The notes beneath the pieces were generated by a model that was not told the origin of the DNA, did not search any database, and saw nothing but the letters and a program-made list of their open reading frames with translations. From Candidatus Paralachnospira avium (GTDB lineage: Bacteria; Bacillota; Clostridia; Lachnospirales; Lachnospiraceae): DNA of 38,521 nt. This document shows positions 16,370-38,521 of this stretch, in pieces (within the stretch, counting starts at the first letter, position 1; each line of letters begins with the position of its first letter). The position numbers and the translations under genes are program-made. The stretch is from the NCBI GenBank assembly GCA_904420245.1, contig CAJFUL010000065.1, forward strand, positions 1-38,521, given 5' to 3'.

Positions 16370-16381
16370 GTTTTCCTCCTG

Positions 16382-17416: not shown

Positions 17417-17430
17417 CTGTATTCCTTCCT

Positions 17431-18321: not shown

Positions 18322-18365
18322 AGGGTACCTCCTGAATATCCGTATTTTACTGCATACATAAGGGT

Positions 18366-18394
18366 AATATACCATAGTTCCGGCCGTTTTGCAA
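18366..18394 (-). promoter_or_regulatory. Promoter of rfbABD
   Basis: On the minus strand: TTGCAA (18389-18394), 17-nt spacer, TATATT (18366-18371), about 45 nt before the rfbA ATG. Its -35 box is only 5 bp from the -35 box of the divergent galU promoter. Confidence 0.75.
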
Positions 18395-18399
18395 TGTTC

Positions 18400-18428
18400 T
18401 TTACTTTTGTCTCCGGGACTGCTATGAT
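18400..18428 (+). promoter_or_regulatory. Promoter of galU
   Basis: TTTACT (18400-18405), 17-nt spacer, TATGAT (18423-18428), about 30 nt before the galU ATG. It is arranged back to back with the rfbA promoter, so the two transcription units compete for or share regulation over the same short region. Confidence 0.65.
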
Positions 18429-18458
18429 AAGCTTACCAAGATCTTTAAGGAGAAGGAT

Positions 18459-19355
18459 ATGCAGAAAAAACCTGTTAAAAAAGCTGTGATCCCCGCCGCC
18501 GGCCTGGGGACCCGTTTTCTTCCGGCCACCAAGGCCATTCCCAAGGAGATGCTGCCCATCGTGGACATCCCCACCATCCAGTACATCGTGGAGGAGGCCG
18601 TCCAGAGCGGCATAGAGGAGATCCTGATCATCACCAATTCCAACAAGCACTGCATGGAAAACCATTTCGACAAAAATTACGAGCTGGAAGCGCGGCTCCT
18701 GGAATCCGGCAAGCAGGCGGAGGCAGATATGATCAACCACATCGCCTCCATGGCCAATATCTACTATGTCCGCCAGAAGGAGCCCAAGGGACTGGGACAC
18801 GCCATCCTCTGCGCCAAGTCCTTCATCGGCAGGGATCCCTTCGCCGTCCTGCTGGGCGACGACGTCGTCGTAAATGAAGGCGGAGAACCTGCCCTGAAGC
18901 AGCTGATCGGAGCTTATGAAAGGATCGGAGCCTCGGTGGTAGGCGTCCAGCAGGTGCCCGACTGCCAGGTGCACAAATACGGTATCGTGGCCCCCTCCCT
19001 CCACCAGCCCGCCGGAGCTTCCCGTCTGAAAAAGCTCTATGACATGGTGGAAAAGCCCAAGCTGGAGGAAGCCCCCAGCAACCTGGCCGTTCTGGGCCGG
19101 TATGTGCTGAAGCCGGAGATCTTTGACTACCTGGAGACACAGGGAGCAGGCGCCGGAGGCGAGATCCAGCTGACAGACGCCATCAAACGGCTCATGTACA
19201 CCCAGACGGTCTATGCCTATGACTTTGAAGGGACCCGCTATGACGTGGGCGATAAATTCGGCTTCATCCAGGCCACCCTGGATTTTGCCCTGGCAAGAGA
19301 CGACCTGAAAGAATCTGTCACCCGCTACGTCAAGGAACTGGCTGAGCGGCTGTAA
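18459..19355 (+). CDS. galU: UTP-glucose-1-phosphate uridylyltransferase
   Basis: Makes UDP-glucose (298 aa, usual length), a precursor for wall and capsule glycans. The N-terminal catalytic loop reads AAGLGTRFLPATKAIPKEMLP. It also has VRQKEPKGLGHAIL, LLGDDVV, EKPK in the middle and YDVGDKFGFIQA near the C-terminus, all characteristic of bacterial GalU. The ATG follows AAGGAGAAGG. It is divergent from rfbABD and 10 nt upstream of the LspA-like gene, so the two form a small plus-strand operon in an otherwise minus-strand window. Confidence 0.96.
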   Translation: MQKKPVKKAVIPAAGLGTRFLPATKAIPKEMLPIVDIPTIQYIVEEAVQSGIEEILIITNSNKHCMENHFDKNYELEARLLESGKQAEADMINHIASMANIYYVRQKEPKGLGHAILCAKSFIGRDPFAVLLGDDVVVNEGGEPALKQLIGAYERIGASVVGVQQVPDCQVHKYGIVAPSLHQPAGASRLKKLYDMVEKPKLEEAPSNLAVLGRYVLKPEIFDYLETQGAGAGGEIQLTDAIKRLMYTQTVYAYDFEGTRYDVGDKFGFIQATLDFALARDDLKESVTRYVKELAERL

Positions 19356-19365
19356 AGGAGGCGCC

Positions 19366-19821
19366 ATGGCTTATCTTCTTCTGGCTGTATTCATTTTCGC
19401 TTCAGACTTTTTTGTCAAGACCCAGATCGAGGCCAGAAAGGCCTCGGATTTCCCCGTGGACCTGGAGCACGGCCTCCGGCTGGAGCGGCACCACAACCGC
19501 GGCTTCCTCCTAAACCGCATGGAGGAAAAGCCGGGGCTGGTGCGCCTGCTCTCCGTCCTGATCGCGGTGCCCCTGGCCGTCTGGTGCCTCTTTTCCATGT
19601 TCCGGAAGGGAAGTCCGGTCAAAAAGACGGCCGCCGCTTTTCTCCTGGGCGGCGCCGCCTCCAACACCTGCGACCGGCTTTCCAGAGGATATGTGGTGGA
19701 TTATCTGCGGCTCTCCGGCGCCCGGATAAAAAAAATCCGCAATATCATCTTCAATATCGCGGATTTCTTTCTCTTTCTGGGGGCCGCCATCCTGGCCGTC
19801 CGGGGACTCTTTTCTAAATAA
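19366..19821 (+). CDS. Signal peptidase II-like (LspA family) membrane protein
   Basis: Small polytopic membrane protein (151 aa) resembling lipoprotein signal peptidase. Hydrophobic segments occur at about residues 2-17, 59-78, 87-97 and 128-146. The two catalytic Asp motifs of the family are present: SNTCDRLSRGYVVDY (about 99-113, compare N-x-x-D-R) and FNIADFF (about 128-134). The usual N-x-G-A-A-F of LspA appears as HNRGFLLN. These differences suggest a divergent paralogue rather than the housekeeping enzyme. The ATG follows AAAGGAGG right after galU. Its 3' end overlaps the opposing gene by 8 bp. Confidence 0.8.
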   Translation: MAYLLLAVFIFASDFFVKTQIEARKASDFPVDLEHGLRLERHHNRGFLLNRMEEKPGLVRLLSVLIAVPLAVWCLFSMFRKGSPVKKTAAAFLLGGAASNTCDRLSRGYVVDYLRLSGARIKKIRNIIFNIADFFLFLGAAILAVRGLFSK

Positions 19822-20494
19822 TATACTTTTCCATCCTGTATTTGTTCATCATTTCTTTAAAGATCTCGCCGTTGGTGGGAGGCGTATAGGTGATGGCATT
19901 GGCGCCGGCGTCTATGGTGCGCCGGATGCTCTCCTCCGTACTGCCTCCGGTGGCGATGATCGGCACCTCAGGAAACTCTCTCCTGATCTTTTCCACGATC
20001 TGGGGCGTATTTTCCGCCCCTGACACGTTGAGGATGGAGGCGCCGCTCTCCAGCCGTTTTCCAATATCCGTTTTTTCCGAGACCACTGTGATGACGATGG
20101 GGATCTCCACCTTTTTATGCAGATATTCCAGGGTCTCATTGGGAGTGGGGGCGTTGACCACCACCGCGTGGGCCCCCTGGAACTCCGCATCCTCCGCCAG
20201 GTTCGTGACCCGTTTTCCTGTGGTGGTCCCGCCGCCCACGCCGCAGAACACTGGAAGATCCGAGCAGCTGATCAGCGCATGGGTGATGATGGGCTGAGGC
20301 GTGAAGGGATACACAGCCATGACTGCATTGGCGTTGCAGTTGCGGATGATGGCGATGTCCGTGGTAAACACCAGGGATTTTATCAACTTTCCAAAGATGC
20401 GGATCCCGCTGGCTTCCTCCACCACATCCGGCAGAAGCACCATATGCTTCCTCAGGTTCCCTTCGATGACAGGCACAAATTTCTTATCTCCCAT
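19814..20494 (-). CDS. TIM-barrel-like protein of unknown function
   Basis: Soluble protein (226 aa) whose alternating pattern suggests a (beta/alpha)8 barrel. Visible segments are AIIRNCNANAVMAVYPFTPQP, GVGGGTTTGKR, AHAVVVNAPTP, IPIVITVVSE, ASILNVSGAENTP, VPIIATGGSTEESIRRTIDAGANAITYTPPT (each read within a longer run). The GG-T-x-E-S plus GANAITYTPP ending resembles phosphate-binding barrels. No catalytic set is clear enough to name a reaction, although databases often call relatives 'hydrolase'. I chose the ATG at 20494, 8 nt after AGGAGG, over another ATG two codons earlier that is too close. It is 25 nt downstream of the Csp-like protease and convergent with the LspA-like gene. Confidence 0.75.
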   Translation of the reverse strand: MGDKKFVPVIEGNLRKHMVLLPDVVEEASGIRIFGKLIKSLVFTTDIAIIRNCNANAVMAVYPFTPQPIITHALISCSDLPVFCGVGGGTTTGKRVTNLAEDAEFQGAHAVVVNAPTPNETLEYLHKKVEIPIVITVVSEKTDIGKRLESGASILNVSGAENTPQIVEKIRREFPEVPIIATGGSTEESIRRTIDAGANAITYTPPTNGEIFKEMMNKYRMEKYII

Positions 20495-20518
20495 GAGCAT
20501 GGCCTCCTTATCTTAACA

Positions 20519-25399: not shown

Positions 25400-26815
25400 C
25401 TATTCTGTCCTGTCTTCCGCGCTGTAACCGGTCAGCTCTTCGATCTTATTGCTGATCTGCTGGACGGTAGAAGAAGGCGTATAGGACGTGTCTCCGAACA
25501 GGTTTGCATGAAGCTCTGTCACGTCCTCAGCCAGCCCCAGCGGCACCTTCACAGAACCTGAGCTTTCCACATACGCATCCACCTGGTGATAGGGGAAGGC
25601 GCTCATGGACGTGATGGAATATTTTCCCACATCCGGAACCAGCGCCAGCACGTCGGCCAGAGTCAGGTTTGTGCTCACCTCGGGGAATACCGCATTGCAG
25701 ATCTCGATCAGCTTTGTGGGGCTGCACTGCTTCAGCTTCTCCAGGATCATGCCCACCACTTCCCTCTGCCGCTGGGTCCGGCCGTCGTCGCCGCCGTTGT
25801 TGTGGCGGATCCGGCAGTAGGCCACCGTCTGGACGCCGTCCAGGGTCTGCAGGCCTGGACCATCTATCTGAGTGGTTCCCTTTCCCAGACCAGTGGCATC
25901 GCTGATGGTATTTTCCTGGGTATTGGTGATATAACCGTTGATCTCATCCATCATACTCTCCGGTACGTCGATCTCCATACCTCCGAGCAGATCCACCACC
26001 TGGGCCACGGCATACCAGTTGACCGTCACATATTCGGTGATGGAAAGATCCAGGTTTTTATTCAGCGCATTGAGCGCCCCCAGATCCCCGCCGGTGTGAT
26101 AAGCATTGTTTGCTTTTGCATACTTATCCTCGATCCCATTGGTAATATCCGGCACATTCCAGTACGTATCCCGCAGCACGGAGGTCAGGGATACTTCCTT
26201 GGTCTCATTGTTGATGTTGACGATCATGATCACATCACTATGGGTTCCTACTTCGTCCCGCCCAAAGACCGCGATGGTCCTGTAGCCGGACATACTCTCC
26301 ATAGTCTGCTCAGACAGATCGTTGATATGGACATCCTTTTCCGCAAACGTGGGCGGCTGGATCCTGTCCCACAGGGAGATCACGAATACTCCCGCTATCA
26401 CCAGCACCAGCAGCAGTCCTTCGACGGCAAACAAAGCACGTCTGATCCTGCGCTTCTTTTTAGCCTTGGGCGAAAGGGGTCTTTTCCCTTTTTGGCCGGC
26501 AGAAGCCGGCTGGCGTTTCCTGGAGGACATATCCTCATACTCATAGCTGCGGCCGGCAGTTCCGGTCCGCCGCGTCCTGTCGTAAGGATCCACCCCCATG
26601 GGCCTGCGCCCTGCTGTCTGAGACGTCTTCCTGGCAGCTCCTGAAGCAGCGCTCCGCGTACTGCCTGTTCTCTGGCTGCCGCTGCGGCTCTGGGCAGTCC
26701 GGCTCTGAGAAGTCCGTCTCTGGGCCGCCGCCCCGGCATCGGGCCTTACCCGTTTTCTCTGCTCCAGCTCCCGCCGGCGCCTTTCGTATTCGTAGTCTTC
26801 ATCCTTGTACTTCAT
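25400..26815 (-). CDS. LytR-CpsA-Psr (LCP) family cell-wall glycopolymer ligase
   Basis: Membrane-anchored phosphotransferase (471 aa). LCP proteins move lipid-linked glycopolymers onto peptidoglycan. The N-terminal ~120 residues are cytoplasmic, very basic and Ser/Thr-rich (ERRRRELEQRKR, then many SRT/GSQRTG stretches). One membrane helix follows at about 128-152. The LCP domain begins near residue 180 (YRTIAVFGRDEVGTHSDVIMIVNINNETKEVSLTSVLRDTYW region), with Arg/Asp residues for pyrophosphate binding and the late VAYCRIRHNNGGDDGRTQRQREV stretch. The ATG at 26815 follows AAAGGAA. It lies 27 nt after the sugar-transferase gene, which would make the lipid-linked substrate, so the two likely act in one pathway. 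Confidence 0.94.
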   Translation of the reverse strand: MKYKDEDYEYERRRRELEQRKRVRPDAGAAAQRRTSQSRTAQSRSGSQRTGSTRSAASGAARKTSQTAGRRPMGVDPYDRTRRTGTAGRSYEYEDMSSRKRQPASAGQKGKRPLSPKAKKKRRIRRALFAVEGLLLVLVIAGVFVISLWDRIQPPTFAEKDVHINDLSEQTMESMSGYRTIAVFGRDEVGTHSDVIMIVNINNETKEVSLTSVLRDTYWNVPDITNGIEDKYAKANNAYHTGGDLGALNALNKNLDLSITEYVTVNWYAVAQVVDLLGGMEIDVPESMMDEINGYITNTQENTISDATGLGKGTTQIDGPGLQTLDGVQTVAYCRIRHNNGGDDGRTQRQREVVGMILEKLKQCSPTKLIEICNAVFPEVSTNLTLADVLALVPDVGKYSITSMSAFPYHQVDAYVESSGSVKVPLGLAEDVTELHANLFGDTSYTPSSTVQQISNKIEELTGYSAEDRTE

Positions 26816-26842: not shown

Positions 26843-28243
26843 TCAATACGCATTCTTATTGACAAATCCCCGGAAAAATGTTAAAAAGATGATCTTAAAA
26901 TCCAGTCCGAGACTCCAGTTCTCAATATAATACAGATCATATTCGATCCGTTTTGTGATAGAAGTATCTCCCCGGTATCCATTGACCTGGGCCCATCCCG
27001 TAAGCCCCGGCCGGACCTGGTGCTTGACCATATATCTGGGGATCTCCTCCCGGAACTTTTCCACAAAATGCGGCCGCTCCGGCCTGGGTCCCACCAGGCT
27101 CATGTCGCCTTTGACGATATTCCAGAATTGCGGAAGCTCGTCCAGGCTGGTCTTTCGGATAAACTTTCCCACCTTTGTGACCCGCGGATCGTTCTTTGTC
27201 GTCCAGGCCTTCTGCTCTTCCGTGGGCTTTTGGACTTCCATGGAACGGAACTTATACATCTTAAAAGGACGGTTGTGGAGTCCCACCCGCTCCTGGCTGA
27301 AGATCACCGGTCCGGGAGAGGACACCTTGACCGCAATGGCCACGCCCAGCATGACAGGCGAGGACAGGACAAGGGCCAAAGTCCCTCCTATGATATCCAT
27401 GGTCCTCTTCACCGCCGCATTGAAAGAATCCGTCAGCGGCACATTGCGGATATTGATGACAGGAAGACCCAGCAGGTCTTCTGTGTACGGCTTCGTCGGT
27501 ATGACTTTATTGTAATCGGGAATAAACTTTGTATGCACGCCGGACTTTTCGCAGGCGTTGACGATCCGTTCCAGCTTGTCATATTCATTGATGCTGAGCG
27601 TGATGGCGATCTCATCCAGACGGTTCATGGGAAGGATCTCATCCAGATTGGCGATGGGCCCCAGTACACGGACGCCTTTATACTCTGTCCCCCGCTCCGC
27701 GTGGTCATCCAGGATGCCCCGGATCAGATACCCCCAGTCCGGGTTGGCCACCACCCTGTCGATATACCCCTGAGCCGCCCGGCTGTAGCCGATGAGGAGC
27801 ACATGCTTCAGATTATAGCCCTTCCGCCGGAAAGACCGCAGGATGCTGCGCAGCGTCAGCCGGAAGGCCGCTTCCAGCATAAAATTGAAGCCTACGAATA
27901 AAAAGATCATCAGCCGGGAAAAATGCTGCAGCCGGTCCTTTGCCAGATAGAGCACCAGCGTGATGATCAGCGCCCCGACCACATTGGCCTTGAATACATT
28001 AAAAAGCTCCAGCCGCCTCCCCATTACCCGCATGGGTTCATATAAATGAAACACCCAGTACAGGATCAGTCCGCCGGGGACAATATACAGCAAGGCGCTG
28101 AAGTAAACTCCTCTGGGAAGGCCTAAGGTCCTGCCCATATAGCCAAAGATCATCCAATATGCTATGAGATAAGATATAATTATAATAAACGCATCGATCA
28201 CCACATGGAGCCGGTTCAGATGCTTTTGATTATCCTTAATCAA
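26843..28243 (-). CDS. Undecaprenyl-phosphate sugar phosphotransferase (polyprenyl glycosylphosphotransferase)
   Basis: Initiating enzyme of polysaccharide assembly (466 aa): transfers sugar-1-phosphate from a nucleotide sugar to undecaprenyl phosphate. The N-terminal part has several membrane helices (about residues 13-35, 45-66, 84-102, 108-124). A Rossmann-like CoA-binding-type domain follows (HVLLIGYSRAAQGYIDRV at about 145). The C-terminal bacterial sugar transferase domain begins with one more helix (about 285-310), then GPVIFSQERVGLHNRPFKMYKFRSM, DELPQFWNIVKGDMSLVGPRPE and VRPGLTGWAQVNGYRG. The start is TTG at 28243 behind AGGTG; no ATG in frame gives the full first helix. The sugar is probably glucose or galactose, which sequence alone cannot decide. 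Followed at 27 nt by the LCP gene. Confidence 0.94.
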   Translation of the reverse strand: MIKDNQKHLNRLHVVIDAFIIIISYLIAYWMIFGYMGRTLGLPRGVYFSALLYIVPGGLILYWVFHLYEPMRVMGRRLELFNVFKANVVGALIITLVLYLAKDRLQHFSRLMIFLFVGFNFMLEAAFRLTLRSILRSFRRKGYNLKHVLLIGYSRAAQGYIDRVVANPDWGYLIRGILDDHAERGTEYKGVRVLGPIANLDEILPMNRLDEIAITLSINEYDKLERIVNACEKSGVHTKFIPDYNKVIPTKPYTEDLLGLPVINIRNVPLTDSFNAAVKRTMDIIGGTLALVLSSPVMLGVAIAVKVSSPGPVIFSQERVGLHNRPFKMYKFRSMEVQKPTEEQKAWTTKNDPRVTKVGKFIRKTSLDELPQFWNIVKGDMSLVGPRPERPHFVEKFREEIPRYMVKHQVRPGLTGWAQVNGYRGDTSITKRIEYDLYYIENWSLGLDFKIIFLTFFRGFVNKNAY

Positions 28244-28294
28244 TCCATTTCACCTATAGCCTTCCTCGATAATCCCGCCTATTCGTCGTTTTAT

Positions 28295-28323
28295 ATCATA
28301 CAAAATCTGATTTCAAAAGGCAA
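28295..28323 (-). promoter_or_regulatory. Promoter of the sugar transferase-LCP unit
   Basis: On the minus strand: TTGCCT (28318-28323), 17-nt spacer, TATGAT (28295-28300), about 50 nt before the TTG start. Just upstream, a short AAACC/GGTTT stem with a following T run (about 28328-28347) may terminate the GT2 message. Confidence 0.6.
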
Positions 28324-28353
28324 CAGAAAAAACCATGAAGGTTTCTTAAAGTT

Positions 28354-29352
28354 TTATGAACTGGCGGGTTTTCGCAGCTTCCGCTGCAGGAATTCCCATA
28401 TATACCCAAAGGTACCGCTCACGAGGCGGCCTTCTATGCAGATATAATGCCAGAGATTCCCAAAGGAGAATTTCACTTTCCGGCACTGCTTCCTGGTGCG
28501 CCAGCCCTCCTTCAGTCCTTCTTTATATTCCCGGCCGAAACCGATCTTCCTGAAAAAAAGGCTCTTGACAAAAGCGCCCGCCGCAAGGGCCGGGAAATTC
28601 AGGATCATCTGGAAAAGCGGCATATTTTTATAATTCAGGTATATACTATTCCTGGCCGCCAGCCGCACCTTAAAAGCGTTATATTTGGATCCGCTGGTCC
28701 CGCTGCCCACATGCTCCACCTGCGCATCCGGCGCGTAGAGATTCTGCCATCCGTGGATCCTGGCCCGGTATCCCACATCCAGATCCTCCAGATAGGCAAA
28801 ATGCAGCTCGTCAAAATATCCGATCTTCTCAAAGACCTCTCTGCGGTAGATGGCCGCTCCGGCGCAGGCCGAAAAGACCCTGGCCGGTTTCGTATACCGT
28901 TCCACAGAATGGGCTACGCCCCTCTGGAAGGCCCATCCCAGCACCGTATACTGATCGCCTGCATCGTCGATCAGCTCCGGATGGTACATCTGGATCATCT
29001 TGGGACTGGCGGAAAAAGCTTTTGGATGGCTGTCCATGGCCTTCACCAGAGCCTCCACATATCCGGGCCGCACCTTTGTATCATTGTTGAGCAGGATCAC
29101 ATAAGGAGTCTGCGCGGCCCGTATCCCTTCGTTGACTGCCCGGCTGAAGCCATAATTCTGATCCAGGACGATCCTCTTCACCTGGGGATACTGTTCTTTC
29201 ACAAGCTCCACGCTTCCGTCCGACGACCCATTGTCCACCAGGATCACCTCAAGATCCCGGCAGCTCTGGCCCTCCAGCGCCTCCATGCAGTCCTTCATAA
29301 AGGCTTTTCCATTGTAATTGGGAATCACGATCGTAACCTTTGCCTCTGACAT
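28354..29352 (-). CDS. Glycosyltransferase family 2, rhamnosyltransferase-like
   Basis: Cytoplasmic GT2 enzyme (332 aa) that adds a sugar to a growing glycan. The N-terminal GT-A fold has VTIVIPNYNGKAFMKDCMEAL, VDNGSSDGS and the metal site in LLNNDTKVRP. The middle holds YREVFEKIGYFDE and YLEDLDVGYRARIHGW, typical of the WbbL/rhamnosyltransferase-like subgroup, and the C-terminus is basic and amphipathic for membrane contact. The ATG at 29352 follows GGAGAG. The nearby rfbABD genes make a rhamnose donor plausible but not proven. It is separated from the next upstream gene by about 340 nt, so it probably has its own promoter in the AT-rich gap. Confidence 0.9.
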   Translation of the reverse strand: MSEAKVTIVIPNYNGKAFMKDCMEALEGQSCRDLEVILVDNGSSDGSVELVKEQYPQVKRIVLDQNYGFSRAVNEGIRAAQTPYVILLNNDTKVRPGYVEALVKAMDSHPKAFSASPKMIQMYHPELIDDAGDQYTVLGWAFQRGVAHSVERYTKPARVFSACAGAAIYRREVFEKIGYFDELHFAYLEDLDVGYRARIHGWQNLYAPDAQVEHVGSGTSGSKYNAFKVRLAARNSIYLNYKNMPLFQMILNFPALAAGAFVKSLFFRKIGFGREYKEGLKEGWRTRKQCRKVKFSFGNLWHYICIEGRLVSGTFGYIWEFLQRKLRKPASS

Positions 29353-29693
29353 CCTCTGCTCTCCATTTGAATCCTTCACGGCAGTACAGCTTTAGATTAT
29401 AGCGGAAAATGGGGGAAAATGCAAGTATTATGACATATAAGGGAGACCTAGATCATCTTTATATAATATATATATTTAAGTGAATAACTCCAATCCAATT
29501 AAGGTCAGATTCCCTCCTTAACTGCTTCAAACAACCTCATCACTCCGGTAAACATACTCCCAATAAAATCTTGTTCATCTCTAAAATGACCATTGCACCC
29601 ATTTCATCAAGTTTCAGATCGCTTTGCTTTTATCCGATGAACCAACAAATAATGGATCAGACTGCACCTATAGTCTGATACCTTCTGTATCCT
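29353..29693. other. 341-nt gap with possible gene remnant and promoter
   Basis: No intact gene. At 29656-29679 an 8-bp inverted repeat (ATCAGACT/AGTCTGAT) follows the tandem GT stop and may be a weak terminator. At 29505-29603 the minus strand has an open frame of 32 codons, closed by TGA, that reads like a protein C-terminus (HFRDEQDFIGSMFTGVMRLF...). It has no start or ribosome site and may be a decayed gene tail. At about 29465-29495 an AT-rich stretch (TTGGAG, 17 nt, TATATT on the minus strand) could be the GT2 promoter. Confidence 0.45.
29656..29679 (-). terminator. Possible terminator after the tandem glycosyltransferase gene
   Basis: ATCAGACT (29656-29663) and AGTCTGAT (29672-29679) form a perfect 8-bp stem with an 8-nt loop, 15 nt past the gene's stop on the minus strand. 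The following T content is modest (ATTATTTG). Confidence 0.45.
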
Positions 29694-31880
29694 CTATTCC
29701 TTCCATGGCTCTTTTTCAAAATTGCGCAAGGAAAAGTCCGAATTCAGTAAAGTCAGGTTTAGATTGTAATATGGATCCCCCTTTTCCAAGATCTCCGGCC
29801 ACCGTTTCCGGAACGTTTCCACTTCCCGTTCAAATCGCAGCACCTTTTGGGGAGTGTCTTCAATCCCCCTGGACTTTGATTCATAATGATATAACTGAGC
29901 AAATGGATTGTATACAACCAGCTTCCCCAGGGCTCGCACTTTCATACAATAGTCTATATCATTAAAGGCCACTGCCAGTCCCTCATAAAAGCCTTCCGCT
30001 TTTTCGAATATCTTTCTCTTTGTCATCATACAGGCTGCTGTCACTGCGCTGAGATCCTGAGCGCAGAAAGCCCGGAGGAAATAGGTCTTTTCTCCTTTAT
30101 GGAATCCAACAAACGCATGTCCGGCGATGCCGCCGTATCCAACGATAACGCCTGCATGCTGAATCGTATCATCGTCGTAGAAAAGCCTAGCTCCCACGAT
30201 CCCCACATCTTCCCGTTGGCAATATCCCAGCAGTTCCTCTATGCAATCCGCATTGATAAACTCAGTATCATTATTTAAAAATAAAAGGTATTCCCCGGTC
30301 GTATATGATATCGCATAATTATTGATCGCGGAAAAATTAAAGCCTTCTTTCCCCTTCCAGGTTATGACCTTTAAGTTTTGATAAAGCTTCTCCATTTCCT
30401 GATAGCAAACGAACGTTTCCTCTTCCGTACTGTTATTTTCCACGATCACGACTTCTACATTTTTATAAGAAGCCTTTTCCATAATAGAATGAACACAGAC
30501 TTTTAAATCCTCTATATGATCCTTATTGGGAATGATGATCGAAACTTTAGGGGTTCCTTTTACCGGATACTTAACTCTATACGCTCCCAATACTTCATTC
30601 TGTAGCACTTCCACCTGACCGATCCCAACCCGCTGGCAATGAGCCTTGATCGCTTTCGCTCCTGCTTCAAAGGCATATAATTTTTTTGACGGATCTTCCG
30701 CTGTCGACTGCTCACTGGCCCGCCAGTGATATAACACCTTAGGAATATGCCCAATATGCTTTGCCTGTTCCGTACAGCGAAAGATAAAGTCGTAATCCTG
30801 CGCGCCGTCAAATTCCTCCCGAAATCCTCCTATCTGCTCTGCCAATACCCTTTTTACAACAAATAGATGCGAAATGTAATTCATACTGCGCAGCAAATCC
30901 AGGTTAAAATCCGGTTTAAAATGTGGATCCAGATAAAATTCTTTATTTTTTTTGTAAGTCAATTTATCTTCATCAGAATAAATGACTTCCGCTGGATCAC
31001 CCTTTTCTTTTGTTTGATTTAAATATAGGGCACATTCAAAAAGAGCCTCTTCCGGCAAAATATCGTCATGATCCAAAAGAGCAATATAATCCCCTTCCGC
31101 CAACTTTAACGCTGCATTGGTATTTCCCGCAATGCCAGCATTCTTTTCCAATGTCACAAATTTAATGCGGGGATCCTGCTTTTGGGCCTCTTCCAGCAAT
31201 GTTGTCAATGGAGTCCTTCCCTGCTCCGCTCCACTTCCATCTGCCATACACAATTCCCAATTTTGGTAAGTCTGTTTCTGCACAGACTCGATCATCTCTC
31301 TTAAGAATTTTTCCGGCGTCCGAAAAAGCGGCACAATCACACTAAACTTAGGTTCCCACACAAGTTTCGTCTTTCTTTGCAGCTCCAGTTCCTCTTCCGT
31401 GGGAATTACCTGCTTTCTCCATCCATTGTAATCGATCTTATTCCCTGTTATCTTCCTGTGTAGCTTTTTAAAAAACGCTTTAACTCCATACTGTTTTAAA
31501 AAGGCAATCCCTCTACCGATCGTATCTGACCGAAAGATTTCCCGTATCCTTAAAATCCTGTCACGCTTATCCTTTTGCCGGTCGCCCGGCACCAATTTTT
31601 CTTTCTTACGCTTTCCATCCGCTTTAAAGACCATGTAATAAGTATTTTCCGGCTGATAATCAATCAGGATGCAAAATCCCAACTTCAACCTGCTCTCACC
31701 ATGAAACACATCCTGATTGACATCATATCGCCCAGTATCTGTCCTATCGATCGGAACAACACGGCCTTTCTGATCGCAAACTTCTATATCCACCGGCACA
31801 TCCGGGGAGGCGCTTGCCGCCCATCCCAAGACAACCATCGTAGAATTTTGGATCTTAATGTTATCGACATAATATTTCAT
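29694..31880 (-). CDS. Tandem-domain glycosyltransferase (two GT2 domains) with N-terminal beta domain
   Basis: Large cytoplasmic glycosyltransferase (728 aa). Residues 1-75 form a beta-rich accessory domain (VLGWAASASPDVPVDIEVCD), followed by a basic helical linker. GT2 domain one starts at about 179 (FSVIVPLFRTPEKFL) with metal site LLDHDDILPEEALFE. GT2 domain two starts at about 446 (VSIIIPNKDHIEDL) with LLFLNNDTEFI and a C-terminal FNDIDYCMKVRALG motif. Both domains look catalytic, so the enzyme may add two different or alternating sugars, as in rhamnan or O-antigen assembly. The ATG at 31880 follows AAAGGATC; an earlier Met lacks a ribosome site. It lies 51 nt after the GH78-like gene, probably in one message with it. 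It is more AT-rich than genes to its left. Confidence 0.9.
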   Translation of the reverse strand: MKYYVDNIKIQNSTMVVLGWAASASPDVPVDIEVCDQKGRVVPIDRTDTGRYDVNQDVFHGESRLKLGFCILIDYQPENTYYMVFKADGKRKKEKLVPGDRQKDKRDRILRIREIFRSDTIGRGIAFLKQYGVKAFFKKLHRKITGNKIDYNGWRKQVIPTEEELELQRKTKLVWEPKFSVIVPLFRTPEKFLREMIESVQKQTYQNWELCMADGSGAEQGRTPLTTLLEEAQKQDPRIKFVTLEKNAGIAGNTNAALKLAEGDYIALLDHDDILPEEALFECALYLNQTKEKGDPAEVIYSDEDKLTYKKNKEFYLDPHFKPDFNLDLLRSMNYISHLFVVKRVLAEQIGGFREEFDGAQDYDFIFRCTEQAKHIGHIPKVLYHWRASEQSTAEDPSKKLYAFEAGAKAIKAHCQRVGIGQVEVLQNEVLGAYRVKYPVKGTPKVSIIIPNKDHIEDLKVCVHSIMEKASYKNVEVVIVENNSTEEETFVCYQEMEKLYQNLKVITWKGKEGFNFSAINNYAISYTTGEYLLFLNNDTEFINADCIEELLGYCQREDVGIVGARLFYDDDTIQHAGVIVGYGGIAGHAFVGFHKGEKTYFLRAFCAQDLSAVTAACMMTKRKIFEKAEGFYEGLAVAFNDIDYCMKVRALGKLVVYNPFAQLYHYESKSRGIEDTPQKVLRFEREVETFRKRWPEILEKGDPYYNLNLTLLNSDFSLRNFEKEPWKE

Positions 31881-31931
31881 TTCTGATCCTTTCGCTTTTC
31901 CAGAGCATTGCACCTTTTTATCTTAGCTCAA

Positions 31932-34900
31932 TTAATTCTTATAATTAACTTTTTCTTCTTCTGATTCGGCTTCGTCCTCCGGTAATTCTGTCTCTTCGCT
32001 TTCTTCAGGAATCCATACTGCCGAAGAACTTTCTTCCACTTCTGAGCTTTCTTCCACTTCCGAGCTTTCTAACGTTCCTTCCGTTTCCTCGCTTTTTATG
32101 GTTTCCTCCGTAGTCGTGGCTTCCTCTGAAGGCACCGTACTTTCGACATTCTCGCTCGATTCCACTGTTTCTTCCTCAGCTCTTGAAGATTCCTGTGTTT
32201 CCACAGCCGTACTCTCGGAAGTTTCTTCAATCACAATATATGAGTTCTCCTCACTAGACAATCCGTTGCCTCCCTTCGGCACCAACTGGATCTGGATTGC
32301 CTCCAGCCACTTCGACTGCCCTGCCGTCCCAGCTGTTTCACCATTCTTTGCCCATCCAAGCCAACCATACGTCTGCGCGTGAACCCGATAATAAATATCA
32401 TAGTACTCTGCTATTTCTCCAGTCAATCGGATCTCAATCGCCTCCAGACGCTTTGCCTGGCCTGTCGTCCCACTCTGTGTTCCATTTCTTACCCAGTCAA
32501 GCCATCCATAGCTTTGCACATGGGTCCTATATTCTATATTCCCCGCATAATCCATATTCATGAGCTTAATAGAAATAGATTCAAGACGTTTTGCCAAGCC
32601 AGTCGTTCCGCTCACAGCGCCATTGGATACCTCTTCCTGCCAGCCATAGCTTTGTACATGGGTAGTATAAAACACTCCGGTCGGGCAGCAAAAAGGCCTC
32701 TCTGTCGCTCCGGGAGCAGCCCCTCCTTTTGCCACCAAACGAATTTCGATGGCTTCCAACCGCTTTGCGTAATCCGCCGTACCTGCAGATTCTCCATTTT
32801 TAGCCCAATCCAACCAACCAAAACTTTGCGCATGTACTCTGTAATAAACATCGTATTTTTCCGCCATCTCTCCAGTCAGACGGATTTGGATTGCTTCCAT
32901 TCGTTTTGCCTGGCCGCTTGTTCCGCTGACAGCGCCATTGGATACCCACTTCTGCCACCCATACGTTTGAAGATATGTTCTATACTCAATTCCGCCAGAA
33001 TAAGGAAGACCGTCCTCCAACCGGATCTGGATTGCTTCCAATCTTTTAGCCTGGCCAGTCGTACCGCTTAACTCTCCATCTTTTCTCCATCCCAACCAGC
33101 CATAGCTCTGGGCATGTGTTTGATAAGTCACCATTCCGTCCTTATAAATACAGGCTTGTCCGCCATTATTATTAAACGAAGATCCCTTCACCACCAAGCG
33201 GATCTGAATAGCTTCCGCCCTCTTCCCAAGCCCAACTGTTCCGGCGCCTTCGCCATTTTTAGCCCAGCCAAGCCAGCCATAGCTTTGGGAATAAATCCTA
33301 TAGTAAATATCATAGTGTTCCGCCAACTCTCCAGTCAGCTGGAGCCTGACCGCTTGGATACTCTTTCCTTGTCCCGGCCTTCCGTTCTGGAGCAGAGCGT
33401 CCTGATAACCAAGCCATCCAAAAGTTTCCATATGTACCTCAATCTGGATTCCGCCTGTTAAATCAACACTATCCAAAGCCAGCTGGAGCCCTTCAATCCC
33501 TTTGTTTTGCCCTTCCGTACCTGCAGTTACGCCGCCATTTTTCCATTCCTGCCATCCAGTCCCGGACACATACGCTCTATACGAAATAGACGCATTTGTC
33601 CCAAGTTCCGATGTATCCTCGTATACTCCAGACTCGCTGATCATCTCATACTGCCCCGATCCAAGCTGCAGCATCAAATATCCATTTTCATAAACGGCTT
33701 CCATCTCCTGAGAATTCACTGAAACCATGGTTTTTTCCGGATTATTGGTCGGAAGATAAACAACTGCCTCCGTATTGGAGGGAATCTTTACCTGTGTCTT
33801 TAATCGTCCATCCCCAAGCATCTCATAGGAGGCTTCTATACTTCCTTTTACAGTAGGGATCTTGATCGAAGCTGCTGCCACGCCTCCCGGCTGAAGCTTG
33901 ATCTGAAATATCCCAAATCCTCCTGTCAAAGGCTGTATGCCGAACATTCCACGCGCCATCTGACTGGCCGGAGCAGACCCCCACGGATGAGAATATGTCA
34001 TATTAGCTTTGCTGGCTGGATTCCAAGCTTCTGTTGTGATCGTAGCTCCCAGCTGATACATCATATAGGCCCAGCTTCTTACTCCGTCATTGGTATTCGG
34101 ATTTGACATGACCTTTCTGGCCAAATCCCCATGATCACTTTCGTACAGCCCCTGAAGCAAAAAAAATGTTCCATAAACGCTCATATTGACAAATCCTTCC
34201 GCTTCAATGGAATCTGCCATGTGATCCGCCATACTTTGATCTCCATAGATCCCATAAGCCAATGCATAAGCTGTGGCATGCTGCGCACAGTGGCTTACCG
34301 GAGTTCCCGCCTCATTAAGTCCATCACAAAATCTCCCTGTATCATCCTGGTACAGTTTAGAAATCATAGTATTTCGTATCGTATTGGCTCTGTCTTGATA
34401 ACGGACAGCATCTTCTGTTTTTCCCAATGCCTCTGCTATAGATGCCATATCCTCATAAGCCCCTACGCAAACAGCATTGAATACCGTATTATAAGATACG
34501 CTCGTATCATAATCATCCCGCTCCGTGATCGGCCAATCGATCAACAACGTCTTGTTCGGTTTTCTAACCATGCCTACGCTGGCATTAAAGTAAGAATCAT
34601 ACAGCTTTCCGCAAAGAGCACTATAATTTTCCTCCAAATAAGAAATATCACCTGTATATAAATAGTCCTGCCAAGCCCAATTAATACAAAAAAGCTGGTA
34701 TTCTGCCGGCCAAGTAGGATAATTACTAAGATAGTCTAAAGAAAACCTGGACAAACTATAGTCATCCTCAAATGTACAGCTGGACAACATATTGATCAGG
34801 CCATCTCCTTCATACGCTGCTCTTTCCCTGCTTTGAGAGTCCACGTAAAGATCTTGGTTCGTTGCCTTGATCGTATATTTTGTCATCTCATAGATATCAT

Positions 34901-36302
34901 TTAATATGGAATTACTGCTGGAAAAAGAAGATTCCTCTTCCGAAAATCCCTGCCGGATCTCCATCCCGGAAACCATATCTACCGTCAAGCTTATCGGGCA
35001 ATTATCGATCTGGACATAGCGAAACGCCTTCATGCTGATATCCTGCAGTTCCTGACTGCCTGCTTTTAACGTCCATGTTTCCTGATAAACATTTCCCGTC
35101 CCCATCTTGTAACGGACCGTACCATCACTATTCAGCTCCTCGCCATAAGAAATCGTGACCTGCCTTTGAGCCGGCATGCTGACCTTTAGCTTCAGGCTTC
35201 CGATAATTTCTTTTCCAAGATCGATCAAATATGAATCGGAATCCAATTTTTTTATGCTTGAAGCCTTACATTCATATCGAGTGATATTTTCTGAAGCATA
35301 TGGCGTAAGCTCCCCAAGGGAATCTATCTGCCCAGCGTCCCGGACTCCCCCCCAACTTCCGGCATTATACGAAGCCGCTGACCAATTATAGGGATAGCTG
35401 GTTCCATTCATATTCTGACGGCTGGCATGATAATAAGCGCCGACTCCCAGATTACTCCCATCCCTGCCAAAAATGGCATCTGCATCCAATTTCTTCCACT
35501 GATTCTGATCCCGTCCTGAATTTACAAGGATATCGCTGCTCCCATCCGAATAAAAGAAGGTGATCTGACATAAAAACCCCTGATCTTCTTCCGAATAACA
35601 GACTGCTCCTAATGCGTTAGTTCCAGACTGTATATATTCTGTAATATCGAAAGTATTATAGTACAGCGCACCATCATTGAGCCTGCTGGGGCCCATACCG
35701 ATCAGATATCCGTTGACATAAAAATCATATACAAATTGGCGCGCAGGTTCCGGCGACACAGCCGTCACACTGGCGATTACCTTCTCTGCTTCTTTTCCAT
35801 TAAATTGAAATGTATGGCGTAAAAATACAAATGCTTCATCCTGGCTTCCCCAGATTGCCTTCTTGCTGGCCCATTTACTTGAAACAGACGTTGAAAATGC
35901 CTGAGGCGACGACAGAGCTCCTTCAAGCCCTTCCGAATCCTTTATCTGAACGCACCAGTAGTACAGCTCATTATCCTGAAGCACTTCCGCCAAAGCGTCA
36001 ATTTTGACACCTGCACTGCTGCTGCTTTCCACCCATCCGGTATCATACAGATAATCTGCCGATGCCATAGCAGCAGCAGTCTCGCCGATCACGATCCTAT
36101 ACGCAGTCTGTTTTTCATTATAATCCGGATCTGAAAAAGCCCACGAAAACCGAAGCGTTTCTTTCGGAACTCCATACGGCTCCTCCAACAGATTGATCTT
36201 TAAATTTTCCGGTGCATCCGGTGCGTTTCCGGCAGCCTGTCCACCAATGGACCAAACACCCAACAATATAAAAATCCCAAATAAAACTGCCTTCAGTTTC
36301 AC
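31932..36302 (-). CDS. Secreted GH78-like (alpha-L-rhamnosidase) protein with nine ChW repeats
   Basis: Very large exported protein (1456 aa). Signal peptide at 1-23; fibronectin-like domain (about 27-140); GH78 accessory beta domains to about 440; (alpha/alpha)6 barrel about 460-780; C-terminal beta domain with SHPWGSAPASQMARGMFG. The GH78 acid cluster is recognisable: D488, E493 and D500 in VDSQSRERAAYEGDG keep the D-x4-E-x6-D spacing, and E758 (GATITTEAW) matches the proposed base. Nine ChW repeats follow (about 903-1340), then an acidic Ser/Glu/Thr tail (about 1345-1456) with no LPxTG. The start is GTG at 36302 behind GAGGTG. It lies 33 nt after the lysozyme gene and shares its repeats. 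Expected to cleave alpha-rhamnosides at the cell surface; the exact substrate is unknown. Confidence 0.85.
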   Translation of the reverse strand: MKLKAVLFGIFILLGVWSIGGQAAGNAPDAPENLKINLLEEPYGVPKETLRFSWAFSDPDYNEKQTAYRIVIGETAAAMASADYLYDTGWVESSSSAGVKIDALAEVLQDNELYYWCVQIKDSEGLEGALSSPQAFSTSVSSKWASKKAIWGSQDEAFVFLRHTFQFNGKEAEKVIASVTAVSPEPARQFVYDFYVNGYLIGMGPSRLNDGALYYNTFDITEYIQSGTNALGAVCYSEEDQGFLCQITFFYSDGSSDILVNSGRDQNQWKKLDADAIFGRDGSNLGVGAYYHASRQNMNGTSYPYNWSAASYNAGSWGGVRDAGQIDSLGELTPYASENITRYECKASSIKKLDSDSYLIDLGKEIIGSLKLKVSMPAQRQVTISYGEELNSDGTVRYKMGTGNVYQETWTLKAGSQELQDISMKAFRYVQIDNCPISLTVDMVSGMEIRQGFSEEESSFSSSNSILNDIYEMTKYTIKATNQDLYVDSQSRERAAYEGDGLINMLSSCTFEDDYSLSRFSLDYLSNYPTWPAEYQLFCINWAWQDYLYTGDISYLEENYSALCGKLYDSYFNASVGMVRKPNKTLLIDWPITERDDYDTSVSYNTVFNAVCVGAYEDMASIAEALGKTEDAVRYQDRANTIRNTMISKLYQDDTGRFCDGLNEAGTPVSHCAQHATAYALAYGIYGDQSMADHMADSIEAEGFVNMSVYGTFFLLQGLYESDHGDLARKVMSNPNTNDGVRSWAYMMYQLGATITTEAWNPASKANMTYSHPWGSAPASQMARGMFGIQPLTGGFGIFQIKLQPGGVAAASIKIPTVKGSIEASYEMLGDGRLKTQVKIPSNTEAVVYLPTNNPEKTMVSVNSQEMEAVYENGYLMLQLGSGQYEMISESGVYEDTSELGTNASISYRAYVSGTGWQEWKNGGVTAGTEGQNKGIEGLQLALDSVDLTGGIQIEVHMETFGWLGYQDALLQNGRPGQGKSIQAVRLQLTGELAEHYDIYYRIYSQSYGWLGWAKNGEGAGTVGLGKRAEAIQIRLVVKGSSFNNNGGQACIYKDGMVTYQTHAQSYGWLGWRKDGELSGTTGQAKRLEAIQIRLEDGLPYSGGIEYRTYLQTYGWQKWVSNGAVSGTSGQAKRMEAIQIRLTGEMAEKYDVYYRVHAQSFGWLDWAKNGESAGTADYAKRLEAIEIRLVAKGGAAPGATERPFCCPTGVFYTTHVQSYGWQEEVSNGAVSGTTGLAKRLESISIKLMNMDYAGNIEYRTHVQSYGWLDWVRNGTQSGTTGQAKRLEAIEIRLTGEIAEYYDIYYRVHAQTYGWLGWAKNGETAGTAGQSKWLEAIQIQLVPKGGNGLSSEENSYIVIEETSESTAVETQESSRAEEETVESSENVESTVPSEEATTTEETIKSEETEGTLESSEVEESSEVEESSSAVWIPEESEETELPEDEAESEEEKVNYKN
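32283..33596 (-). repeat. Nine ChW repeats in three A-B-C triads (GH78-like protein)
   Basis: Each unit is about 46-55 residues with a core like YGWLGWAKNGExAGT, then KRLEAIQIRL. Units come in a fixed order: A (variable, ends in a short loop), B (ends LTGEMAEKYD), C (starts IYYRVHAQ, ends LVxKGG plus a linker). The order A-B-C occurs three times, so the array grew by copying whole triads. ChW repeats in clostridia are surface-associated modules. Confidence 0.9.
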
Positions 36303-36335
36303 CTGTGCACCTCATTCTTTCTATCTTATAAATCG

Positions 36336-38297
36336 TCAATACACTTTATAACATAAATCCAAATCTACATTTCCAGAAATTCCATCAACTCTGCCGCTGC
36401 TGGTAAACTGCCAAATTTGAACATTGGTAAGGTTTGTCCAATTTCCTCCTTCATAGCCCGTATCATATACCATCTGCCGCATCGATTCGCTACTGAAATC
36501 CAGAACATCGTCACTCCAGCGGTACCTGGCCAGCCAAATATCATACGAAGCTGCGATACTGCTGTAATCGAAAGCATCCTTCAGCTTACTGGGACTTCCA
36601 TAAATGCATGTCTTATAACCCGCATCCTGAAAAACCTTGCAAAATTCCCGAGCCATGGCCATATTATTTAGCTTGGCAGCTGCCGTCATATGCTCTTCTT
36701 CCTCCAGATCAAAAGCAATCGGATATGTAAAATCATATCCTTCAATTAAACTCAAAGCATATTCCGCATCTTCACGTGCCTCTTCAGGTGTAGAGGAATA
36801 AATATATACATAACCGCCTATTTCAATCCCATTGACCAATGCTCCCCGGGCATTAGCATCAAAATAACGGTCTTTCATCAACCGGCCGGCTGTTTCCGTA
36901 GTATTTTTCTGCGTAATCCGGAGCATTGCAAAATCCGCTCCATCTGCCTTTACCTTATTCCAATTAATGCTCCCCTGCCAGGAAGAGACGTCGATTCCCC
37001 AAAACTGCGGCTTGTAAAAAGTATCACTTGTAGACCCCGGTGCTTCTCCGCCCTTTTCAACCAACTGTATCTCAATCGCTTCCATCCTCTTTGCATACGC
37101 TTCGCTTCCTGCTGATGCCCCATTACACGCCCAGCCAGTCCACCCAAAAGTCTGACAGTGGACTCGATAGTAAATATCATATTTTTCCGCCATTTCACCG
37201 GTCAAACGGATCTGAATAGCCTCCAATCGTTTTGTCTGCCCTGTTGTACCCGCAGTCGCTCCATTGGATACCCATTCCATCCAGCCATAAGTTTGGCAAT
37301 GGACCCGGTACTCAATATTACCCGGAATCAGGCTGTGATTTTCTAATTTAATCTGAACCGCTTCTAACCTCTTTTCTTCTCCCACAGTTCCGCTGGTCTC
37401 TCCATTGAATACGCTGGACAACCATCCATAGGTCTGCGCATGGCTCGTGTACGTCACCCTCAAGTCCTCTATATATGCTCCGTTAGTACTCCCCGGCGCA
37501 GCACCTCCCTTTTCTACCAGACAGATTTCTATGGCTTCTGCTCTCTTTGTTAAACCTGCTGTTCCGGCCGCTTCACCATTCTTAGCCCAGCCCAGCCACC
37601 CATAGGTCTGTACATGGAGACGGTAATAAATATCATATGTTTCTGCCAGTTCCCCCGTCAGACGGATCTGGACCGCTTCTATTCGTTTCGCTTGATCTAC
37701 AGTCCCGCTCACAGCGCCATCGGAAACCCAAGGCATCCATCCATAAGTCTGCGCGTGCACCCGGTATTCCACATTTCCCTCTAATTCTGTGTCCGAAATC
37801 CGGATCTCCAGTGCTTCTATCCGTTTTGCCTGTCCGGTCATCCCAGAAAGCATCCCATTCTGTACATAAGGCTGCCAACGAAATGTCTGAAGATACGTAC
37901 GATACTCCACTTTTGCTGTTCCAGCTTTCTCCGAGCTGTTTAAAGAAATATCATTGCTCTGACTCTGTTCCGGTTCCGATTCTTCCAATCCCGATGTCTC
38001 CGTCAAAACCGTCTCCTCTTCTTCTGTAGTCGGATCGGCTTCTGTTCTGTCAGCTGACTCCTGAACAGAAGTGTTTTGCGAGTTCTCCTCTTCCTCAGAT
38101 GATAAAACCTCTGAAGATTCTCCGCTGCTGCTCTCTTCCGTTGTCTCAGAACTACTCTCTTCTGCTGTCAGCTCTTCTCCGGAAGCTTCCTCTATTTGCT
38201 CCCCTTCTACCCGAAGCTCTCTTGTATTCGACAATGCCAATAACAAAGACATCAGCAAACACAATGCCAAACATTTTATCCTTAAGGCTTTTTTCAA
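36336..38297 (-). CDS. Secreted GH25 lysozyme (muramidase) with six ChW repeats
   Basis: Exported peptidoglycan hydrolase (653 aa). Signal peptide at about 1-24; acidic Ser/Glu/Thr-rich stretch (about 30-125); six ChW repeats (about 130-420) in two A-B-C triads; C-terminal GH25 domain from about 433 to the end. The GH25 active site is seen as D436 (FWGIDVSSW) and D530/E532 (AFDLEEEE), with WLARYRW and VQIWQFTSSGRV-GISGNVDLD later. It cleaves between MurNAc and GlcNAc in known members. The start is TTG at 38297 behind GGAGG, giving a proper signal peptide. It begins the transcript that continues into the GH78-like gene 33 nt on. The modular order (acidic, ChW, enzyme) is the reverse of its neighbour (enzyme, ChW, acidic). 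Confidence 0.93.
   Translation of the reverse strand: MKKALRIKCLALCLLMSLLLALSNTRELRVEGEQIEEASGEELTAEESSSETTEESSSGESSEVLSSEEEENSQNTSVQESADRTEADPTTEEEETVLTETSGLEESEPEQSQSNDISLNSSEKAGTAKVEYRTYLQTFRWQPYVQNGMLSGMTGQAKRIEALEIRISDTELEGNVEYRVHAQTYGWMPWVSDGAVSGTVDQAKRIEAVQIRLTGELAETYDIYYRLHVQTYGWLGWAKNGEAAGTAGLTKRAEAIEICLVEKGGAAPGSTNGAYIEDLRVTYTSHAQTYGWLSSVFNGETSGTVGEEKRLEAVQIKLENHSLIPGNIEYRVHCQTYGWMEWVSNGATAGTTGQTKRLEAIQIRLTGEMAEKYDIYYRVHCQTFGWTGWACNGASAGSEAYAKRMEAIEIQLVEKGGEAPGSTSDTFYKPQFWGIDVSSWQGSINWNKVKADGADFAMLRITQKNTTETAGRLMKDRYFDANARGALVNGIEIGGYVYIYSSTPEEAREDAEYALSLIEGYDFTYPIAFDLEEEEHMTAAAKLNNMAMAREFCKVFQDAGYKTCIYGSPSKLKDAFDYSSIAASYDIWLARYRWSDDVLDFSSESMRQMVYDTGYEGGNWTNLTNVQIWQFTSSGRVDGISGNVDLDLCYKVY
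37038..37910 (-). repeat. Six ChW repeats in two A-B-C triads (lysozyme)
   Basis: Same unit type and same A-B-C order as in 32283-33596. B units end LTGELAETYD or LTGEMAEKYD; C units start IYYRLHVQ or IYYRVHCQ and end LVEKGG followed by APGST. The very close match between B/C units of the two proteins points to recent duplication or ongoing gene conversion. Confidence 0.9.
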
Positions 38298-38351
38298 TTC
38301 TGTTCCTCCATTTCGTCTCCAATGCTACACACCATATAACCGCTGTTGTAT

Positions 38352-38380
38352 ATTATATAGTTTATTTCTTCAGATGACAA
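38352..38380 (-). promoter_or_regulatory. Promoter of the lysozyme-GH78-GT operon
   Basis: On the minus strand: TTGTCA (38375-38380), 17-nt spacer, TATAAT (38352-38357), about 55 nt before the TTG start of the lysozyme gene. This is the only good promoter seen upstream of the three closely spaced genes. Confidence 0.8.
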
Positions 38381-38439
38381 TGGAAAATCCTCCCCTATTT
38401 CTCCTCGAACATGAAAAATGGGGCTGTCGCATCAATTGA

Positions 38440-38500
38440 TATGCTCCCTTCTAGGTAGACAAGTAAAATAATAAAAACTTGTCACTTAGGAGGGAGCATA
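38440..38500. repeat. Imperfect 24-25-nt inverted repeat at the right edge, possible IS end
   Basis: The arm at 38440-38464 (TATGCTCCCTTCTAGGTAG...) is nearly the reverse complement of 38477-38500 (...TTAGGAGGGAGCATA), separated by 12 AT-rich nt. The right arm carries the ribosome site of the gene that starts at 38504. A GGGGCTGTCGCA motif lies just outside (38420-38431). The layout resembles the left end of an insertion sequence, where such a hairpin limits incoming transcription and translation. Confidence 0.5.
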
Positions 38501-38503
38501 TTT

Positions 38504-38521
38504 ATGTATAAAAGGAAAATA
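38504..38521 (+). CDS. Start of a gene cut by the window edge, possibly a transposase
   Basis: ATG at 38504 with AGGAGGG nine nt upstream; only MYKRKI is visible before the window ends. The plus orientation, AT-rich context and the inverted repeat over its ribosome site suggest the first open frame of an insertion sequence. The six residues alone prove nothing. Confidence 0.4.

Follow-up and report, generated by a model that had tools for sequence, protein, structure and literature searches.

We examined a pair of adjacent genes in a 38,521-nucleotide (nt) stretch of DNA from Candidatus Paralachnospira avium (the window), which is the entire contig C65 of a draft genome (G000) of 2.25 Mb in 92 contigs and 87% complete. 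Both genes lie on the minus strand, as do their domain features and the glycosyltransferase, sugar transferase, LCP and rml genes of the window described below. GH25-ChW (36336–38297) encodes a protein of 653 aa from a TTG start and GH78-ChW (31932–36302) one of 1456 aa from a GTG start, with a gap of 33 nt between them. The preliminary description of this DNA had proposed that the two, a GH25 lysozyme and a GH78-like rhamnosidase, are a matched pair acting on a rhamnose-bearing wall polymer, and the open reading frames were found where it had placed them. Gene order, domain content, kept active-site residues and linkage to rhamnose genes provide support at the sequence level, and comparison with relatives revealed that the association is real, repeated and wider than a two-gene pair.

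Domain architecture of GH25-ChW and GH78-ChW

Both proteins have a leader-like N-terminus (judged by eye for GH25-ChW) and triadic ChW arrays. In GH25-ChW the N-terminus is followed by an acidic Ser/Glu tract (37914–38210, limits approximate), six ChW repeats arranged as two triads (37491–37922 and 37035–37469) and a C-terminal GH25 domain (36336–37013). This domain spans residues 435–640 (Pfam PF01183, E 1.1e-24; 88.2 bits against a 27-bit cut-off), and its GIDVSSW and FDLE stretches fit the Asp and Asp-x-Glu stretches of the GH25 motif. Ser/Thr and Asp/Glu each make up 31% of residues 29–135, and the acidic stretch is kept in the seven GH25-ChW relatives examined, in which the same residues hold 18–31% Ser/Thr and 21–33% Asp/Glu.

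The Pfam series of GH78-ChW consists of an Ig-like domain (Ig_Rha78A_N, residues 31–139), Bac_rhamnosid (352–448), the 6-hairpin domain (456–780; E 1.6e-33, 116.9 bits against a cut-off of 24.5) and a C-terminal domain (788–859), after which come eight significant ChW stretches. There are nine ChW repeats in three triads (33150–33575, limits approximate; 32709–33143; 32256–32687), one repeat of the first triad being degenerate and below detection (its place is marked by a spacing of 93, that is, 46 + 47). The acidic tail (31935–32249) closes the protein, with 30% Ser/Thr and 36% Asp/Glu in the last 105 residues. Both the triadic arrays and the mirrored order described beforehand (acidic tract, ChW, GH25 in one protein; GH78, ChW, acidic tail in the other) were borne out, the repeat starts (PF07538) being 46 or 47 aa apart inside a triad and about 58 aa apart between triads.

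Within the GH78 region (residues 24–870; 33693–36233), D488, E493, D500 and E758 stand at active-site places. Residues 488–500 read DSQSRERAAYEGD and align with DCPSYEQVFWVGD of the Bacillus GL1 enzyme 2okx, while E758 falls at the WE glutamate of 3w5m, 6i60 and 3cih, an assignment read from printed alignments, the HMMER alignment of 2okx being shifted there. D567, E572, D579 and E841 of RhaB and E636 and E895 of SaRha78A are the catalytic or binding acids of those enzymes. All 12 proteins compared, the window's own and that of G152 included, keep the four acidic residues. A fold model was built from 11 sequences (G152 was omitted from this alignment, A2, its match being without the first 166 query residues) and reached only a moderate predicted local distance difference test score (pLDDT) of 70.9; the first ten matches of the model in the PDB are all rhamnosidases, one of them named putative (E 1.1e-37 to 1.8e-21). 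The GH78 alpha-L-rhamnosidases 6i60, 3w5m, 2okx and 3cih have the same domain series, fold and active-site acids as GH78-ChW, which is 14–17% identical to them in structural alignments and differs from them in adding three ChW triads and an acidic tail and in sitting in a wall-polymer locus. By its domains, active-site acids and modelled fold, GH78-ChW is predicted to be an alpha-L-rhamnosidase.

The locus in the genus and in wider relatives

A two-domain family-2 glycosyltransferase gene (29694–31913) begins 18 nt past GH78-ChW, and is followed by another family-2 glycosyltransferase gene (28354–29379), a polymer-initiating sugar transferase gene (Bac_transf, 26843–28243) and a LytR-CpsA-Psr (LCP) gene (25400–26815). 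Profile matches further identified rmlD (15506–16369), rmlB (16382–17416) and rmlA (17431–18375), which together occupy 15506–18375 and all score above the NCBIfam cut-offs (as rfbD, rfbB and rfbA). The rfbABD, LCP and glycosyltransferase genes that had been said to lie nearby are therefore all present; the nearness of rfbABD holds less well, since it is about 14 kb from the pair, with trypsin/PDZ, ClpX-like, subtilase and LCP genes in between, and the best rmlD match of G006 and of G008 is on a different contig from GH78-ChW. Two open reading frames adjoining rmlA (18318–19367 and 19814–20500) gave no Pfam match.

Eleven genomes of the genus, the window's own included, were compared. The GH25 domain found matches in nine, and in seven the match is a GH25-ChW gene with a GH25 domain 55–71% identical to the window's (the seven include that of G006, of which a contig end leaves a single ChW repeat, and that of G010). 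The G010 gene (L057 8592–10565) is broken in the assembly, its GH25 match being in two pieces and its Pfam domain partial. An orthologue of the 29694–31913 glycosyltransferase (66–69% identical) stands directly after GH78-ChW or GH25-ChW in all six other genus genomes with GH25-ChW. GH78-ChW is present in three of the 11 genomes (G000, G006 and G008), each time directly downstream of GH25-ChW and before the glycosyltransferase; in G003, G005, G009 and G010 the glycosyltransferase directly follows GH25-ChW with no GH78 between. GH78-ChW is thus an optional insert between GH25-ChW and the glycosyltransferase.

The two genes are accompanied by other ChW wall enzymes. CHAP-ChW, transglutaminase-like-ChW and L,D-transpeptidase-ChW genes occur in the locus of G003, G005, G008, G009 and G010 (the transglutaminase match of G008 is under the cut-off), with extra genes between them and GH25-ChW in G003 and G009, and CHAP-ChW and transglutaminase-like-ChW genes are on contig C40 of G006. 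In G008 (L047 8470–19000 and L048 2–4483) five ChW genes stand in a row (GH78, GH25, L,D-transpeptidase, transglutaminase-like and CHAP); many further ChW matches were seen on other contigs of this genome. Only three ChW genes were found in the window's own draft genome, where all 20 ChW matches fall in L,D-transpeptidase-ChW, GH25-ChW and GH78-ChW. The first of these has its end 197 nt inside the beginning of contig C2, which also carries an ABC exporter gene, rmlC, a UDP-galactopyranose mutase gene and an O-antigen polymerase-like gene, and C2 presumably adjoins C65. The matched pair proposed at the outset hence stands as a co-occurrence, but the two genes are part of a larger ChW set (three genes here, five in G008) in which GH78 is optional (3 of 11 genomes, against 7 of 11 for GH25-ChW).

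Linkage to rhamnose genes was followed through rmlC. A match to rmlC and one to GH25 occur together in nine of the 11 genomes and are both absent from two, although the nine are related genomes rather than nine independent events and one of the two without, G004, is 84% complete. In seven of the nine, rmlC and GH25 are 11–34 kb apart on one contig; in G000 and G006, rmlC is on a contig other than that of GH25-ChW (C2 and C40, respectively), which probably adjoins it. The dTDP-rhamnose genes share a contig with GH78-ChW in G008 and in G113, a genome outside the genus, and are divided in G000 between C65 (rmlABD) and C2 (rmlC). In G001 and G002 the rmlC-linked GH25 protein is 1368–1369 aa long, has fn3-like modules and no ChW, and its gene adjoins that of an L,D-transpeptidase that is likewise without ChW. 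Across these stretches (L077 12082–18999 and L078 287–7157), fn3-like and GBS-Bsp-like modules replace ChW in the GH25 and L,D-transpeptidase proteins of the same kind of locus.

Beyond the genus, the GH78 region used as a query matched seven of 397 genomes of the family (E <= 1e-40), and three of 392 of the order and nine of 391 of the class (E <= 1e-80), each count including the window's own genome and some genomes having been sampled repeatedly; one scan of genome contigs gave five loci. In total six GH78-ChW genes were found, in G000, G006, G008, G113, the genome of locus L042 and G697; the other loci examined, a set that does not include three weak matches within the genus, are without ChW. 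As judged by eye, acidic tails are present in the GH78-ChW proteins of G006, G008 and G113 and absent from those of L042 and G697. The preliminary description had called for a co-occurrence count in relatives, and this came out in its favour: GH25-ChW adjoins GH78-ChW in G000, G006 and G008 and is one gene away in G113 and L042, that is, for five of the six GH78-ChW genes, and all five are among polysaccharide genes. The intervening gene of G113 is on the opposite strand and has no Pfam match.

In G113 and L042, Glucosaminidase-ChW and GH25-ChW genes are near GH78-ChW, and L042 also has NlpC/P60-ChW and L,D-transpeptidase-ChW genes. The GH25 domain of these two loci shares 26–33% identity with its counterpart in the genus and stands before the ChW array, the opposite domain order. 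As the partner in this set is another GH25, chance adjacency of the pair is unlikely. In G113, rmlB, rmlA, rmlC, rmlD, an initiating transferase gene and an LCP gene are within 38 kb of the GH78-ChW start, the first of them 22 kb beyond GH25-ChW. The same region (L084 5374–8525) contains a GDP-mannose 4,6-dehydratase gene and, with a score under the cut-off, a GDP-mannose pyrophosphorylase-like gene, and the polymer of G113 may, judging from these genes, contain another 6-deoxyhexose. Further along in L042 are a flippase-like gene, a nucleotide-sugar dehydrogenase gene and glycosyltransferase genes.

Phylogenetic analysis placed the five locus-linked GH78-ChW proteins in one group (support 94/99, just under the 95 mark), whereas that of G697 groups with the ChW-less protein of G152 (96/96). 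L103 and L105, which were checked and have no ChW, and the weak GH78 matches outside the locus in G003, G006 and G008 were left out of the tree. At least two changes of label (gain or loss of ChW) are needed on it, and its simplest reading is that there were probably two separate GH78-ChW fusions, that of G697 being distinct.

ChW triads, AtlE/EpaU and the interpretation of the pair

The triad pattern recurs across the ChW genes of the fetched loci. Exactly two complete triads are present in 22 of 41 ChW open reading frames from the fetched loci, and most of the others are longer or cut forms of the same pattern (one gene is counted twice among the 41 owing to overlapping loci, and some frames are truncated where a contig or locus ends). 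Eighty triads were aligned (A1; six of 86 were omitted, one a duplicate from overlapping loci), and from this alignment came an AlphaFold2 model of the second triad of GH25-ChW, with a pLDDT of 96.7 and a predicted template modelling score (pTM) of 0.91. Foldseek, which may overlook small folds made only of beta strands, found no match to this model in the PDB at E <= 0.001 (best 0.18), and the two triads used as a sequence query against the PDB returned nothing at E <= 10. A guess that the triad is a beta-trefoil found no support in the Foldseek search. In BFVD, at E <= 0.001, the model matches five predicted proteins of phages, and three of these bear the name lysin, endolysin or lysozyme. 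The triad (37035–37469 of the window) is thus a confidently predicted domain for which no solved relative was found, and possibly has an undescribed fold.

ChW triplets were suggested earlier (Sullivan et al. 2007, as cited in PMC5817068), and two papers describe the repeats as lacking a determined ligand or a known function (PMC5817068, PMC8051824). An endolysin part with ChW anchors proteins on Lactococcus (PMC6700490), and in the table of a review ChW appears together with GH25 and with the transpeptidase family (PMC6403190). The window proteins share PF07538 repeats with the ChW proteins of C. acetobutylicum, Enterococcus and phage endolysins and differ from them in being clustered within a polymer locus and in that one bears GH78.

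The nearest described system is AtlE/EpaU of Enterococcus faecalis. This GH25 muramidase is a product of the locus for the enterococcal polysaccharide antigen (EPA), a rhamnopolysaccharide; its variable repeats bind EPA decorations, digestion is strain-specific and EPA is released (PMC13343894, PMC12208459), the binding repeats being GW or DUF5776 (PMC12208459). Both AtlE/EpaU and GH25-ChW combine GH25 with a repeat-built wall-binding array. The former has a Ser/Thr-rich disordered N-terminus, and the corresponding segment of the latter is Ser-rich and probably disordered. Each is encoded inside a rhamnose-polymer locus, as seen here through the rmlC linkage, and in each case the array varies from locus to locus, with GW or DUF5776 in Enterococcus and, here, ChW in seven genomes and fn3-like/Bsp-like modules in two. 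In contrast, the repeats here are ChW, with no GW or DUF5776; an N-terminal GH25 precedes the repeats in AtlE, an order found in G113 and L042 and reversed in the window and its genus; other ChW wall enzymes and GH78 are present in the locus here; and polymer binding has been demonstrated for AtlE/EpaU and is proposed for ChW. The opinion that no system with this pairing had been described holds for the pairing itself, GH78-ChW beside GH25-ChW not having been found in the open-licence literature searched (preprints excluded), but not for the muramidase half, which PMC12208459 and PMC13343894 describe. The muramidase thus has a precedent in AtlE/EpaU, and its rhamnosidase partner is apparently new.

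On balance, the domain and linkage data and the analogy with AtlE/EpaU incline us to the view that the pair belongs to a set of ChW wall enzymes encoded in a rhamnose-containing wall-polymer locus, and comprises an AtlE/EpaU-like muramidase and a ChW-tethered alpha-L-rhamnosidase that would trim the cell's own polymer. After secretion, the enzymes would be tethered by their ChW triads to the wall of the cell that makes them, and the ligand of the triads may be the polymer of the locus. GH25 would cut the glycan strands that bear the polymer, loosening the wall and releasing the polymer as AtlE does in Enterococcus, and GH78 would take terminal alpha-L-rhamnose off the polymer, altering the ends of chains either still on the wall or already released. 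The acidic Ser/Glu tracts may be flexible spacers, perhaps glycosylated. We put forward more tentatively the idea of a self-editing wall, in which the locus would encode its own polymer-binding triad, fused both to a polymer-freeing muramidase and to an end-trimming exo-alpha-L-rhamnosidase, so that the surface antigen could be changed or shed after assembly. If true, a wall-tethered rhamnosidase would mean that a wall polymer can be edited outside the cell after its assembly, which would bear on phage receptors and immune recognition.

Several observations weigh against the view that the pair trims the cell's own rhamnose polymer. GH78 is absent from four of the seven genus genomes with GH25-ChW, which shows that the locus can do without it, and the presence of rmlC does not separate GH78-ChW carriers from non-carriers. 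G004 (84% complete) has ChW but gave no rmlC match, and in G001 and G002 the GH25 and L,D-transpeptidase proteins linked to rml genes carry modules other than ChW; ChW is therefore unlikely to bind rhamnose as such. That ChW enzymes occupy one polymer locus while the matching genes of sister genomes carry other modules frames the question of whether the triad binds the polymer of its own locus. Since the five linked GH78-ChW proteins form one group, at most three independent lineages are represented. The rmlC of the L042 genome is on another contig, and the status of L042 as a polymer locus depends on its flippase, glycosyltransferase and nucleotide-sugar dehydrogenase matches. The GH78-ChW gene of G697 (L089 9268–13317) is among seemingly unrelated genes (by eye), none of its neighbours being recognised as a ChW or wall gene, and the rml locus of this genome, which is on a different contig, has no ChW around it.

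A further point concerns nutrition. GH78 is best known from the breakdown of plant rhamnosides, and GH78-ChW could be a surface-displayed scavenger of dietary or host rhamnosides, its adjacency to GH25-ChW reflecting only a shared context of secretion and anchoring. The stand-alone GH78-ChW of G697 fits this explanation, as do the eight class-level relatives outside the window's own genome, which are short open frames of 714–965 aa without ChW. Matches to rhaA (rhamnose isomerase) were found in two of the three GH78-ChW carriers, G000 (582.8 bits, just under the curated cut-off of 584.95) and G008, so a feeding role keeps some probability. However, the third carrier, G006, has no rhaA match although it is 97% complete, and rhaA shows no association with GH78-ChW (two of three carriers, four of eight non-carriers; above the cut-off in two of 11 genomes), for which reason nutrition was rejected as the main role. 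Moreover, the gene stands between wall-enzyme and polymer-glycosyltransferase genes in all three genus carriers and is surrounded by polymer genes in G113 and L042. We consider scavenging unlikely and retain it as an alternative. The rhaB model, which matched in all 11 genus genomes but never above its cut-off, was not used.

It is still less probable that the GH78-like domain has no catalytic activity, or acts on a different sugar of the polymer, and serves as a sugar-binding scaffold. The family is broad, and DSQSRERAAYEGD departs from the DERLGWTGD form of 3w5m; nevertheless, the constancy of the four acids in all 12 proteins and the fact that PDB matches, by sequence and by fold, are rhamnosidases first argue for activity on rhamnosides. 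Least probable of all is that GH78-ChW attacks the walls of competing bacteria with GH25-ChW as a secreted lysin, which would suit the phage lysin matches of the triad model and the leader-like N-termini but not the position of the genes within a polymer locus, nor the outcome of a scan of 30 neighbouring proteins, in which nothing was recognised as serving toxin delivery or immunity.

Sequence upstream of the pair

The two genes had been described as standing behind one promoter. A promoter-like site (TTGTCA-17-TATAAT, 38352–38380, minus strand) with an 11/12 match is indeed present 54 nt ahead of the TTG start of GH25-ChW; because a scan of 28000–38521 gave 24 sites against 18.4 expected by chance, its strength and position are what speak for it. 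No Rfam family matched at its gathering score anywhere in the window. The view upstream of GH25-ChW is limited by the end of the contig at 38521. An intergenic repeat with an inverted pair (38439–38456 and 38484–38501) occupies 38414–38521, has a 93% copy at C88:8460–8570 and a 79% partial copy at C2:110–178, and may explain why the contig ends there.

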